Shown one piece after another: positions 25,639-28,962 of a stretch of 64,000 nt of DNA. Each line of letters opens with the position of its first letter. Position 1 is the stretch's first letter. The stretch comes from Teretinema zuelzerae. Its GTDB lineage: Bacteria > Spirochaetota > Spirochaetia > Treponematales > Treponemataceae. The notes beneath the pieces are model-generated. The model worked only from the letters and a program-made list of their open reading frames with translations. It ran no database searches and had not been told where the DNA came from. Both the position numbers and the translations under genes were made by a program. The stretch covers positions 806,001 to 870,000 of the forward strand of contig NZ_JAINWA010000003.1 of the NCBI RefSeq assembly GCF_021021555.1, given 5' to 3'.

Positions 25639-26655
25639 CTATCTGCGGCCGTTTTTTCGGAAGCCTTCCACGCGGGCGCTCGCCGTTTCGGAAAACGAAC
25701 TGACGATGCCCCGGGAAAGATACTGATAGCCCAGCCCGGCGACCATGGCGGCGTTGTCCCCGCAAAGAGACAAGGGAGGGAATACGCACTCTATGTCCGT
25801 TCGTTCGGCTAAAAGCTTGCGGAGACGGGAATTGGCCGCCACCCCTCCTCCCGCGACGACGGTTGTCAGACCAGTGTCTTCGACGGCGCGGAATAACCGG
25901 GACAGCAGTATTTTTACAGCCGCTTCCTGAAAGGCCGCGGCGAGGTTTTCATCGGTTCGTGGATACGAGGGATTCCAAAACTGGTCGATCTGGTTTATCG
26001 CCGCCGTCTTGAGCCCGGAATACGAGACATCGTATCGATGTTCGCCCTTGTGAAGGGAGGGCATCGGGAAGGCGGCCGCGCGCGGATCCCCTTTTTCGGC
26101 GAGGCGGTCGATGACGGCGCCGCCCGGATATCCAAGGTTGTAGAATTTAGCGACCTTGTCGAAGGCTTCTCCCGCGGCGTCGTCTATTGAAGTCCCGAGA
26201 ACTTCGATCTGGTCGTAGCCGGCGACTTTGCAGATGATCGTGTGTCCGCCTGAAACCAGCAGGCCGAGATAAGGATAGGAGACATCGGCCGCAAGATGAG
26301 CGGCATAGAGATGGGCGAGCATGTGGTTGACCGCGATGAACGGCTTTCCGAGGGACCAGGAGAGGGTTTTTCCGAAGGTCAGTCCCACCAGCAGGGAGCC
26401 CATGAGTCCCGGCCGGCCGGTCGCGGCGATTCCGTCGATTTCGCCGGGCTTTAATGAGGCTTTATCAAGAGCCTCGCGTACGACGGGCAGAATCCATTCA
26501 GTATGCTTGCGGCTCGCGATCTCGGGAACCACGCCCATCCATTCGGCATGAAAGGGAATTTGGGTTGCCACGACATTGGATATGATCGTTCTGCCGTCCT
26601 CTACGACAGAGGCGGCGGTTTCATCGCAGGAAGTTTCGATCCCAAGGATTTTCAT
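25639..26655 (-). CDS. tsaD: tRNA N6-adenosine threonylcarbamoyltransferase TsaD
   Basis: 338 residues of the ASKHA fold. MKILGIETSCDETAAS starts the protein, the iron-binding motif NHMLAHLYAAHL lies near residue 110, and GLLVSGGHTII and VVAGGGVAANSRLR follow. With TsaB and TsaE it makes t6A37 in ANN-decoding tRNAs and is essential in most bacteria. Its ATG overlaps the stop of the upstream deacetylase (ATGA), so it is coupled to that gene and may be part of the sigma-factor operon. Confidence 0.97.
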   Translation of the reverse strand: MKILGIETSCDETAASVVEDGRTIISNVVATQIPFHAEWMGVVPEIASRKHTEWILPVVREALDKASLKPGEIDGIAATGRPGLMGSLLVGLTFGKTLSWSLGKPFIAVNHMLAHLYAAHLAADVSYPYLGLLVSGGHTIICKVAGYDQIEVLGTSIDDAAGEAFDKVAKFYNLGYPGGAVIDRLAEKGDPRAAAFPMPSLHKGEHRYDVSYSGLKTAAINQIDQFWNPSYPRTDENLAAAFQEAAVKILLSRLFRAVEDTGLTTVVAGGGVAANSRLRKLLAERTDIECVFPPLSLCGDNAAMVAGLGYQYLSRGIVSSFSETASARVEGFRKNGRR

Positions 26656-27788
26656 TCCTCGAAATCTCCCTCCACGGCTATGCGGGCTATTGTGGAAAGA
26701 GAAAACCCTTGAGCCGCTAGTTCGGGGTACATTTCAACGAGTATATTCGCCAGATCATTGGACCAGATATGGCCTATCATGATGGCCGTTCCTTTTTTTT
26801 CCGCTATGTGCATGCCGTTGCGCACGGCTTCCATTATCTCGATCCGATCCTGGCTATTGTCAAGAAACACTGCACGCTCCCAAATGGTCATATTCAAATC
26901 CCGAGCCGCGGCCGGAGCGGCCGTCGCGGAATTAGTCCGGGAGTCGAGGAAATAAATACCCCGCTCCCGCGCGATCTCCAATACGGTCTTCATGGCTTCG
27001 CGGTCGGCGGTGATCATCGATCCTTCATGATTGTTCATGCCCGCTACCGGCCACACCTCGTCAAGATTTTCCCGCACCACAGCGCGGATCTCGTCGGCGC
27101 TCATGCCCTGCCTGATCGCGCCCGGACCCGGATCCATCTTGAGATTCAGGGCTTGCATAGGCTGATGAAGAATAATTTCCTTTCCCGAGGCTCTGATCCG
27201 TTTCGCCGCTTCCCGAGAATACTGTAATCCCGGAAGAACGGCAATAGTGCACGGAAAGGGAAGCCGGAGGAAGGGTTCAAGCTGGGCAAGATTATGTCCC
27301 GCGTCGTCGAAAACGAAAAGGAGAGTTCCCTTTCTCTTCGGAGGCAGCGGTTTTTCAACCGGGGGAGCCGCAGGCGCCGCGACCTTTAGCGGTTCCGTTT
27401 TTTGCGGAGGAACCGGTTTCCGAGGCTGCGGAGCCTTGACAGCCGGCGGAACGCCCCTTGCGCCGGCGGGTTCTTTGACGGGCGGCGGCGATTCAGGCTT
27501 TTGTGCCGGCGCGGTGCGCTCGACCGCCGGCGCTGCGACCGGGGAAGAAGCGGATGGCGCTTCGACCAGGGGCGAAGAAGCCGGCGACTCGCGAGCGGCG
27601 GACGGAGGAGCTTCCGGCGGCGAAGCCCCGGGAGATGACGGACGGGAGACAGCCGGAGCCGACGACGCCGGCTGTGCGGAAGAGGCTGACGGGTTTTCCG
27701 GAAAATGGCGTACGGCCAAAAGGACGGCGGATATAACAAAAACCGCCGCAAGGAGAATCAGGTTGAACCTGAATTCCGCGGCGGTCAT
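26652..27788 (-). CDS. Divergent polysaccharide deacetylase family protein (DUF610/YibQ type), membrane-anchored
   Basis: 378 residues from ATG 27788. A hydrophobic anchor (about residues 6-25) is followed by a Pro/Ala/Ser-rich linker of about 110 residues. The catalytic-type domain begins at GTLLFVFDDAGHNLAQLEPFL and contains ILHQPMQALN, GMNNHEGSMIT, YFLDSRTN and MIGHIWSNDL, as in divergent polysaccharide deacetylase 2. It should act on the periplasmic side, probably on cell-wall glycans. The ATG overlaps a 19-codon Lys-rich reading frame. One extra base in an A7 tract would fuse the two, giving a Lys-rich cytoplasmic tail before the membrane anchor. Confidence 0.85.
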   Translation of the reverse strand: MTAAEFRFNLILLAAVFVISAVLLAVRHFPENPSASSAQPASSAPAVSRPSSPGASPPEAPPSAARESPASSPLVEAPSASSPVAAPAVERTAPAQKPESPPPVKEPAGARGVPPAVKAPQPRKPVPPQKTEPLKVAAPAAPPVEKPLPPKRKGTLLFVFDDAGHNLAQLEPFLRLPFPCTIAVLPGLQYSREAAKRIRASGKEIILHQPMQALNLKMDPGPGAIRQGMSADEIRAVVRENLDEVWPVAGMNNHEGSMITADREAMKTVLEIARERGIYFLDSRTNSATAAPAAARDLNMTIWERAVFLDNSQDRIEIMEAVRNGMHIAEKKGTAIMIGHIWSNDLANILVEMYPELAAQGFSLSTIARIAVEGDFEE

Positions 27789-27844
27789 TTTCTTTTTTTG
27801 CGTGCGGTTTTCTTTTTACGGGTTGTTTTCTTTGTCGGAGCCAT
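27785..27844 (-). CDS. 19-codon Lys/Arg-rich leader ORF before the deacetylase
   Basis: ATG at 27844 to TGA at 27785 encodes MAPTKKTTRKKKTARKKRK. The stop overlaps the deacetylase start (ATGA). A promoter with a perfect TTGACA, a 17-nt spacer and TATCTT ends 8 nt before this ATG, in the same layout as other leaderless genes here. The ORF contains an A7 tract (27793-27799); adding one A joins it in frame to the deacetylase. It may be a coupling leader peptide or the true N-terminus separated by a frameshift or sequencing error. Confidence 0.5.
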   Translation of the reverse strand: MAPTKKTTRKKKTARKKRK

Positions 27845-27852
27845 CGGTCTCA

Positions 27853-27881
27853 AAGATAAAGACCGGAAGCTCCGCTGTCAA
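27853..27881 (-). promoter_or_regulatory. Promoter for the Lys-rich leader ORF and deacetylase
   Basis: Minus strand: TTGACA (27881-27876, overlapping the sigma-factor stop codon), 17-nt spacer, TATCTT (27858-27853), then 8 nt to the leader ATG at 27844. Confidence 0.55.
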
Positions 27882-28705
27882 CCGTATACGAGCTCCCGCA
27901 GTTCGGAGGATCGGGTTTTAAGCTTTCGAAGCGCCCTGAGTTCGATTTGCCTGATGGTTTCCGCTGAAACGCCGTACTGGCCGCCGATTGTCTTCAGAGT
28001 CTGCGGTTTTCCTTCGTTCTGCAGATTATACCGCTTCATCATGATGTCGCGTTCGGTATCCTTGAGATCCGATAAAATATTCACCAGCGAATCCTGCGTG
28101 TACTTTTTCATAAATTCTTCTTCAGGATTATAGGTGGTGTCCGGAATCAGATCCTTGAGGGAGGCTGAATCCTCTGAATCGAGCTGCACATCGAGGCTGG
28201 TCACCGCGCCGGAGCACCGCATGATCTCGCACACGTCGCGCAGGGAAAGATTAAGATGGTCGGCAAGCTCCTGTGCGTTCGGCAGGCGGGAGAGCTTCTG
28301 GAACAGCTCGGACGACGCGCGGCGGATCCGGTTCGCGAGCTCCTCCTTGCGGAACGGCAGGCGGATGAGCCTCTTTTTATTCGCGATCGCGCGGGTGATG
28401 GACTGTTGAATCCACCAGCAGGCGTAGGTAGAGAATCTGACATTGTAGCCGAATTCGTATTTCTGGGCCGCGGTGATCAGCCCGAGATTACCTTCCTGAA
28501 TAATGTCGAGCAACGGCATATCAGGTGCGGCGTATTTTCTGGCCACGGTTACAACCAGACGCAGATTGGACTCGATCAGTTTTTTTCTAGCGCAAATGTC
28601 TCCAGCCTGTATCTTCTTCGATAATTCAAGCTCTTCATCAAAACTAAGCAACGGATACTTTCTGATTTCTTTAAGGTACTCATTTATTGAATCTTGATCG
28701 CACAT
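27878..28705 (-). CDS. RpoS-like group 2 sigma-70 family factor
   Basis: 275 residues. Region 1.2 (DSINEYLKEIRKYPLL), region 2 (LIESNLRLVVTVARKY, LLDIIQEGNLGLI, RFSTYACWWIQQSITRAI), region 3 and region 4.2 (helix-turn-helix LKTIGGQYGVSAETIRQIELRALRKL) are complete. The absence of region 1.1 and the size match RpoS-like alternative factors rather than the housekeeping RpoD. It is preceded by a sigma-54-type promoter with a 10-nt leader and a GGGGG ribosome site, recalling rpoS control in Borrelia. The deacetylase and tsaD lie downstream on the same strand and could be read from the same promoter. I do not assign a symbol because orthology to RpoS is not proved. Confidence 0.9.
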   Translation of the reverse strand: MCDQDSINEYLKEIRKYPLLSFDEELELSKKIQAGDICARKKLIESNLRLVVTVARKYAAPDMPLLDIIQEGNLGLITAAQKYEFGYNVRFSTYACWWIQQSITRAIANKKRLIRLPFRKEELANRIRRASSELFQKLSRLPNAQELADHLNLSLRDVCEIMRCSGAVTSLDVQLDSEDSASLKDLIPDTTYNPEEEFMKKYTQDSLVNILSDLKDTERDIMMKRYNLQNEGKPQTLKTIGGQYGVSAETIRQIELRALRKLKTRSSELRELVYG

Positions 28706-28725
28706 AATGCCCCCGACACCTAATA

Positions 28726-28742
28726 AGCAAGAATCATGCCAA
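28726..28742 (-). promoter_or_regulatory. Sigma-54 (-24/-12) promoter of the RpoS-like gene
   Basis: Minus strand TTGGCATGATTCTTGCT: GG and GC are separated by exactly 10 nt and the core TGGCA-N6-TTGCT matches the RpoN consensus except for one base. The expected start site is near 28715, ten bases before the ATG. Confidence 0.75.
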
Positions 28743-28812
28743 GTTCATCAGGAGTAAAACAAGATGTACATTTCTATATATAGTAACGGTTTTCATCCAG
28801 AGAGATAAAGGT

Positions 28813-28836
28813 AAAGGATGCAATACTGTATCCTTT
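28813..28836. promoter_or_regulatory. 24-bp palindrome, candidate activator site upstream of the sigma-54 promoter
   Basis: Arms AAAGGAT and ATCCTTT are perfect over 7 bp and the whole 24-bp element matches its reverse complement at 20 positions. Its centre lies about 110 bp upstream of the predicted start, the usual distance for an RpoN enhancer-binding protein. A weaker palindrome TTACA-N4-TGTAA lies at 28874-28887. The rest of 28706-28937 holds no gene. Confidence 0.5.
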
Positions 28837-28937
28837 CGTGCACAATAATGGCGAGAAACTGTATGATAAAGTGTTACAGCATTGTAAATTCAGGCAGATA
28901 AACGCGATGCATAACACAGAAAAAGGTAAAAAACAAT

Positions 28938-28962
28938 AAAAAAGGGCCGATAATTCGGCCCC
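28938..28962 (-). terminator. Rho-independent terminator after the M20 peptidase
   Basis: Minus-strand stem GGGCCGA/TCGGCCC followed by TTTTTT, 27 nt after the peptidase stop. Confidence 0.9.

Follow-up and report, generated by a model that had tools for sequence, protein, structure and literature searches.

The best described system close to this locus is the Rrp2–RpoN–RpoS pathway of Borrelia burgdorferi, in which Rrp2 activates rpoS (PMC4014564) and is the sole sigma-54 activator (EBP) of Borrelia (PMC12655853); in the papers found, the RpoN–RpoS pathway is treated as one of Borrelia, the Lyme spirochaete. A second point of comparison is the Hpk2/Rrp2 pair of T. denticola (TDE1970/TDE1969), a PAS histidine kinase and a response-regulator EBP, the Rrp2 of which has been predicted to be a sigma-54 EBP (PMC12070737). 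A treponeme paper on sigma-54 control of the kind described below was not found in the open-access literature searched, which is not proof of novelty.

The locus described here lies in a window (the whole stretch of DNA analysed, 64,000 nucleotides) from a genome of 3.62 Mb in 3 contigs. It shares with the B. burgdorferi pathway an orthologous sigma gene, a sigma-54 promoter, rpoN, and an orthologous Rrp2 with its histidine kinase, but differs in that its organism has several EBPs, one of which, with a GAF domain, tracks the sigma gene, and in the presence of upstream boxes and of a second sigma-54-controlled sigma factor. The genome also encodes a PAS histidine kinase paired with a response-regulator EBP, from the clade to which Hpk2/Rrp2 belongs (in G025, a genome of the T. 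denticola group, the member of this clade is presumably the TDE1969 ortholog), although sigma-gene targets of Hpk2/Rrp2 are not reported in the papers found and the link is proposed here. Our overall reading, to which we give a probability of roughly 0.85, is that the window holds an rpoS ortholog (sigma A) under sigma-54, with an EBP acting at upstream boxes, and that a second factor (sigma B) is controlled in parallel. The features concerned are as follows (window coordinates unless a contig is named).

25639..26655, minus strand: tsaD, overlapping the end of the deacetylase gene
26652..27788, minus strand: divergent polysaccharide deacetylase (PF04748), following sigma A in many Treponematales families
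27878..28705, minus strand: sigma A, a 275-aa sigma-70-family factor (Pfam regions 1.2, 2, 3 and 4; trees; same-genus orthologs)
28706..28715, minus strand: predicted leader; the spacing (12 nt beyond the C of GC) places the expected start near 28715
28726..28742, minus strand: predicted sigma-54 promoter TTGGCATGATTCTTGCT (GG at 28740-28739, GC at 28728-28727), found before all well-resolved orthologs
28765..28787, minus strand: element GTTACTATATATAGAAATGTACA, between the boxes and the promoter, kept in several same-genus relatives (alignment)
28813..28836, no strand assigned: imperfect 24-bp palindrome AAAGGATACAGTATTGCATCCTTT (minus-strand letters), 10/12 pairs, its palindromy not conserved
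28827..28836, minus strand: proximal upstream box AAAGGATACA, some 91 bp upstream of the -24 GG and matching AAAGTATACA, the box of the genus, at 9/10 positions
28859..28865, minus strand: CATACAG, tentatively a degenerate distal box, 33 bp from the ATACAG of the proximal box
about 28930..28961, minus strand: terminator-like hairpin (GGGCCGAATTATCGGCCC then a T run), after the upstream M20 peptidase gene
G000:C3:945860-946729: sigma B, 290 aa, of the T. pallidum TP1012 type, with its own conserved sigma-54 promoter

The sequence-only reading of this DNA had taken the gene for an RpoS-like sigma factor, and this is borne out by the presence of regions 1.2–4 and by phylogeny. Same-genus orthologs with 65–77% identity occur in 10/11 genomes, and in a 78-sequence tree the sigma A proteins, including Borrelia RpoS (40–41% identical to the window protein), form one side of a branch with 100/100 support, while sigma B, a third sigma factor and RpoD each group apart. 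E. coli RpoS is likewise an alternative sigma of the sigma-70 family with regions 1.2–4, but it falls outside the spirochaete clade, so that ‘RpoS’ here denotes the spirochaete lineage and not the proteobacterial one; against the proteobacterial RpoS equivalog (TIGR02394) the window protein scores 248.3 bits, under the cut-off of 378.7 bits. Since window sigma A and Borrelia RpoS share a 100/100 clade that leaves out E. coli RpoS, the analogy with Borrelia is one of homology and, judged by the tree, Borrelia rpoS has its treponeme ortholog in the window gene.

The -24/-12 element described earlier is confirmed at 28726-28742, with exactly N10 between GG and GC and a position 21–37 nt 5′ of the ATG at 28705. 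It conforms to the sigma-54 promoter pattern (TGGCAY-N5-TTGC with GG-N10-GC spacing) and matches the consensus in 12/13 letters; in Markov shuffles of such upstream regions the chance per region is 0.008 at 10/13, 0.001 at 11/13 or better, and 1.3e-4 at 12/13 or better. The leader contains a GGGGG Shine-Dalgarno-like run, with GCGGGGG kept across the genus (alignment), and sigma A probably begins its own transcription unit because the terminator-like hairpin separates it from the M20 peptidase gene. The absence of rpoN, which the sequence-only reading had allowed for, is not what we found: the genome has one rpoN, with an intact frame and the RpoN box ARRTVAKYR. Exact matches to TTGGCAYN5TTGCW number eight in the host genome, three of them inside a probable integron array and five before hsp20, nifH, sigma A, sigma B, and an operon with a two-component EBP (nifH and this operon were named by eye from sequence). 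We regard the promoter before sigma A as almost certainly used by sigma-54 polymerase.

Many further sigma-54-like matches in the 1.70–1.85 Mb part of C3 were set aside as repeats of the probable integron array. That region (G000:C3 about 1702000-1851000; L354, L355) has dozens of spaced repeats, mostly on the minus strand, with small unrelated genes between them; many genes start with residues like MLTLRAQKG, and the whole looks like a chromosomal integron cassette array of ~150 kb. Elsewhere, C3:734550 and C3:749761 (L086, L091) mark a nifH-like gene, preceded by a sigma-54 promoter of its own, and a GAF EBP of NifA-like type, and the host organism may, from these genes, be a nitrogen fixer.

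Sigma B, whose T. pallidum counterpart TP1012 has been detected as a protein (PMC5015957), has a sigma-54 promoter in 30/30 orthologs examined and in most others checked, the site in the putative T. pallidum genome G030 being ATGGCATGATATTTGCT. Paired TGTGTCAWWWTGACACA-like boxes lie exactly 40 bp apart in 17/32 sigma B upstream regions (0.05 in shuffles), and the best match to the TGTGTCAWWWTGACACA box in the host genome stands before the sigma-54 promoter of hsp20. One enhancer shared by both sigma genes was rejected, the sigma B box being absent before sigma A; the upstream sequences indicate that sigma B is wired to sigma-54 in parallel with sigma A, via different boxes. In G025 (L145) a long near-perfect palindrome, TATAAGTCTATATTGAATATAGACTTATA, also stands 5′ of the sigma-54 site that precedes sigma B.

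The host genome encodes seven EBPs, and 91 EBPs from 20 genomes (a set from which four weak EBPs were not recovered, with some genomes sampled in part) form recurring clades. One of these, present in 20/20 genomes, groups with Borrelia Rrp2, and the search for an Rrp2-like activator thus yielded an ortholog (C3:313804-315192) that is 56% identical to Borrelia Rrp2 within a 99/98 clade, a response regulator with a PAS histidine kinase gene adjoining. Another, a clade of GAF-domain EBPs, occurs in 19/20 genomes and is missing from G030, which also lacks sigma A. A table compiled by hand covers 44 near-complete genomes, which are not independent (the absences are spread over five genera). In 39 of them sigma A and the GAF EBP occur together, in five (G022, G023, G030, G032, G039) neither occurs, and none is discordant; the Rrp2 ortholog is present in 44/44. 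This co-occurrence favours an arrangement in which the GAF EBP would act on sigma A and Rrp2 on sigma B, and we put the odds a little above even that the activator of sigma A is the GAF-domain EBP predicted at G000:C3:250214-251725. A GAF EBP with 40% identity is encoded in G022 and may be an ortholog that has diverged; among less complete genomes, G051 (88%) has a sigma A fragment and no GAF EBP was found there, and G031 (82%) shows the reverse. G015 has only two EBPs, the GAF EBP and the Rrp2 ortholog, together with both sigma genes.

Two other candidates were set aside. In G048 an EBP gene (L203) adjoins sigma A, but it was rejected as a general partner, being a member of a different clade and having no counterpart next to sigma A in the other genomes listed; a degenerate EBP (L039 type) was not recovered in G015 and G056, both of which bear sigma A.

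The alternative that fares best keeps the same cascade but has the Rrp2 ortholog activate sigma A as in Borrelia, the GAF EBP acting elsewhere. The established role of Rrp2 in Borrelia, the close relationship of the ortholog and its presence in all near-complete relatives would suit this, but we consider it rather unlikely, as Rrp2 is retained in all five sigma A-less lineages, from which the GAF EBP is gone, and Rrp2 by itself can explain sigma B, which those lineages retain. Borrelia itself, with sigma A but with Rrp2 as its only EBP, implies that the GAF EBP is not needed everywhere and shows that Rrp2 can serve sigma A. The Borrelia-like RpoN–Rrp2–rpoS cascade first suggested for this locus thus holds in its sigma orthology, promoter, rpoN and Rrp2, but not clearly in Rrp2 as the activator, since the GAF EBP tracks sigma A better.

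The 24-bp palindrome had been put forward as a likely enhancer site. It is present, but weak by itself: palindrome-grade 24-mers number six in the window versus 4.2 expected, and P = 0.011 for one such palindrome in this intergenic stretch, or about one per 90 such stretches, on which ground we no longer treat it as the key feature. Its left arm is kept in relatives, but its palindromy is not. That arm is AAAGGATACA, at the place of a genus-conserved AAAGTATACA box. Across the genus, AAAGTATACA lies 123–127 bp from the GG in 10/11 genomes, most of which have a partner box 33–34 bp nearer the GG; of this pair the window has a clear match for the proximal box only. Sigma-54 upstream activator sites are usually paired. 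The distal box coincides with the end of the upstream reading frame (..DGKVYTYP-stop) in six relatives and appears, by eye, to be noncoding in four, and its being kept in both settings argues for selection on the DNA. Taken together, the arrangement suggests that the upstream boxes probably bind the activator.

The boxes might instead be a repressor site or second basal promoter elements, with the EBP acting without an enhancer, and the facts that they are shown in the window's genus only, that the sigma B box was not found before sigma A outside the genus, and that the element at 28765-28787 is likewise conserved and unexplained are consistent with this. We judge it unlikely, given two boxes at a fixed distance from the sigma-54 promoter, kept both inside and outside coding sequence, and the classic paired arrangement seen at sigma B. 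The GTTACTATATATAGAAATGTACA element itself is possibly a site for a bending protein or a second promoter.

Conservation of the promoter, which the sequence-only reading had made a point of, extends from close to distant relatives: the element stands before every well-resolved sigma A ortholog, among them Borrelia rpoS, and these amount to about 90 genes from 26 families in the class. The first 30 orthologs all have it (30/30), and in 15 more distant ones the -24 position reads GG in 14 and AG in one, from the T. denticola group, giving 45/45 (44 GG, one AG). In other families of the class it was found at 29/29 first-listed loci and at further hand-picked ones, and the two Borrelia-family rpoS genes have it as well, the Borrelia rpoS site being TTGGCACGATTTTTGCG. 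Which genomes are called Borrelia, T. pallidum or T. denticola group was decided by the size of the genome, the position of genes and the grouping of families. When 45 sigma A genes are compared with 32 of sigma B, the letters of the element are almost invariant, a comparison in which the remaining positions alone are free evidence, as the sites were preselected for G at the second -24 position and for GC at -12. Exceptions are L244, where the candidate site is distant with none nearer, L351, where no upstream sequence is present, and the sigma B gene L299, which has GT where GC is expected. In the third sigma gene, taken as a control, a sigma-54 site was sought within 350 bp of the aligned start and none was found.

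The T. denticola group (three genomes) has AG in place of the -24 GG at 4/4 sites examined (sigma A in all three genomes and sigma B in G025), and its RpoN box reads AVRTVNKYR versus ARRTV(A/N)KYR elsewhere, with one arginine lost. Alanine mutants of RpoN at R455 or R456 fail to bind the -24 region (PMC7175178), and by eye alignment the lost arginine equates with R455. AG is likewise seen before sigma A in G092, a genome unrelated to this group. That the -24/-12 match and the palindrome arose by chance, with the gene read from an ordinary sigma-70 promoter, is highly improbable and was rejected: the palindrome, taken alone, is close to what chance would give in the window (6 versus 4.2 expected), but the promoter is kept in 26 families, stands out against the shuffle null, and in the T. 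denticola group drifts in parallel with the RpoN box.

Downstream, the PF04748 deacetylase lies directly 3′ of sigma A in 10/10 loci tested (families f1 to f5), and a different gene follows sigma A at other loci (L016, L017, L024, L341, L345); in the window the deacetylase is plausibly co-transcribed with sigma A. Between the two genes, at 27785-27844 on the minus strand, there is a very basic 19-aa frame, MAPTKKTTRKKKTARKKRK, which, after seven consecutive A, closes with a TGA that overlaps the ATG of the deacetylase. The deacetylase of relatives carries a comparable basic stretch as its fused N-terminus, and frameshift, indel and translational coupling are candidate readings of the frame.

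In the circuit we propose, sigma-54 RNA polymerase would transcribe the window's rpoS ortholog from the -24/-12 element at 28726-28742, once a signal leads an enhancer-binding ATPase, bound to a pair of boxes some 90 and 124 bp 5′ of the -24 GG, to open the promoter. The proximal box, inside the reported palindrome, would be the recognisable form of the genus AAAGTATACA in the window. Sigma A would then direct a second wave of genes, perhaps with the neighbouring deacetylase made from the same transcript, and sigma B would be wired to sigma-54 in parallel through TGTGTCAWWWTGACACA boxes 40 bp apart. We think it likely that this goes back to a circuit of the ancestral spirochaetes, with two separate sigma-70-family factors under sigma-54 via two different activators, Borrelia having kept the RpoS branch and T. 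pallidum the TP1012 branch. On this view sigma-54 of the T. denticola group changed its -24 specificity along with the promoters of both targets.

From the sequences compared here, the sigma cascade of Borrelia appears to be a single branch of an ancient system common to the class. If a class-wide two-branch circuit of this kind is real, an rpoN-dependent sigma factor would be predicted in both T. pallidum and T. denticola, candidate activators would be at hand, and the T. denticola group would provide a natural example of sigma-54 shifting its specificity in step with its promoters.
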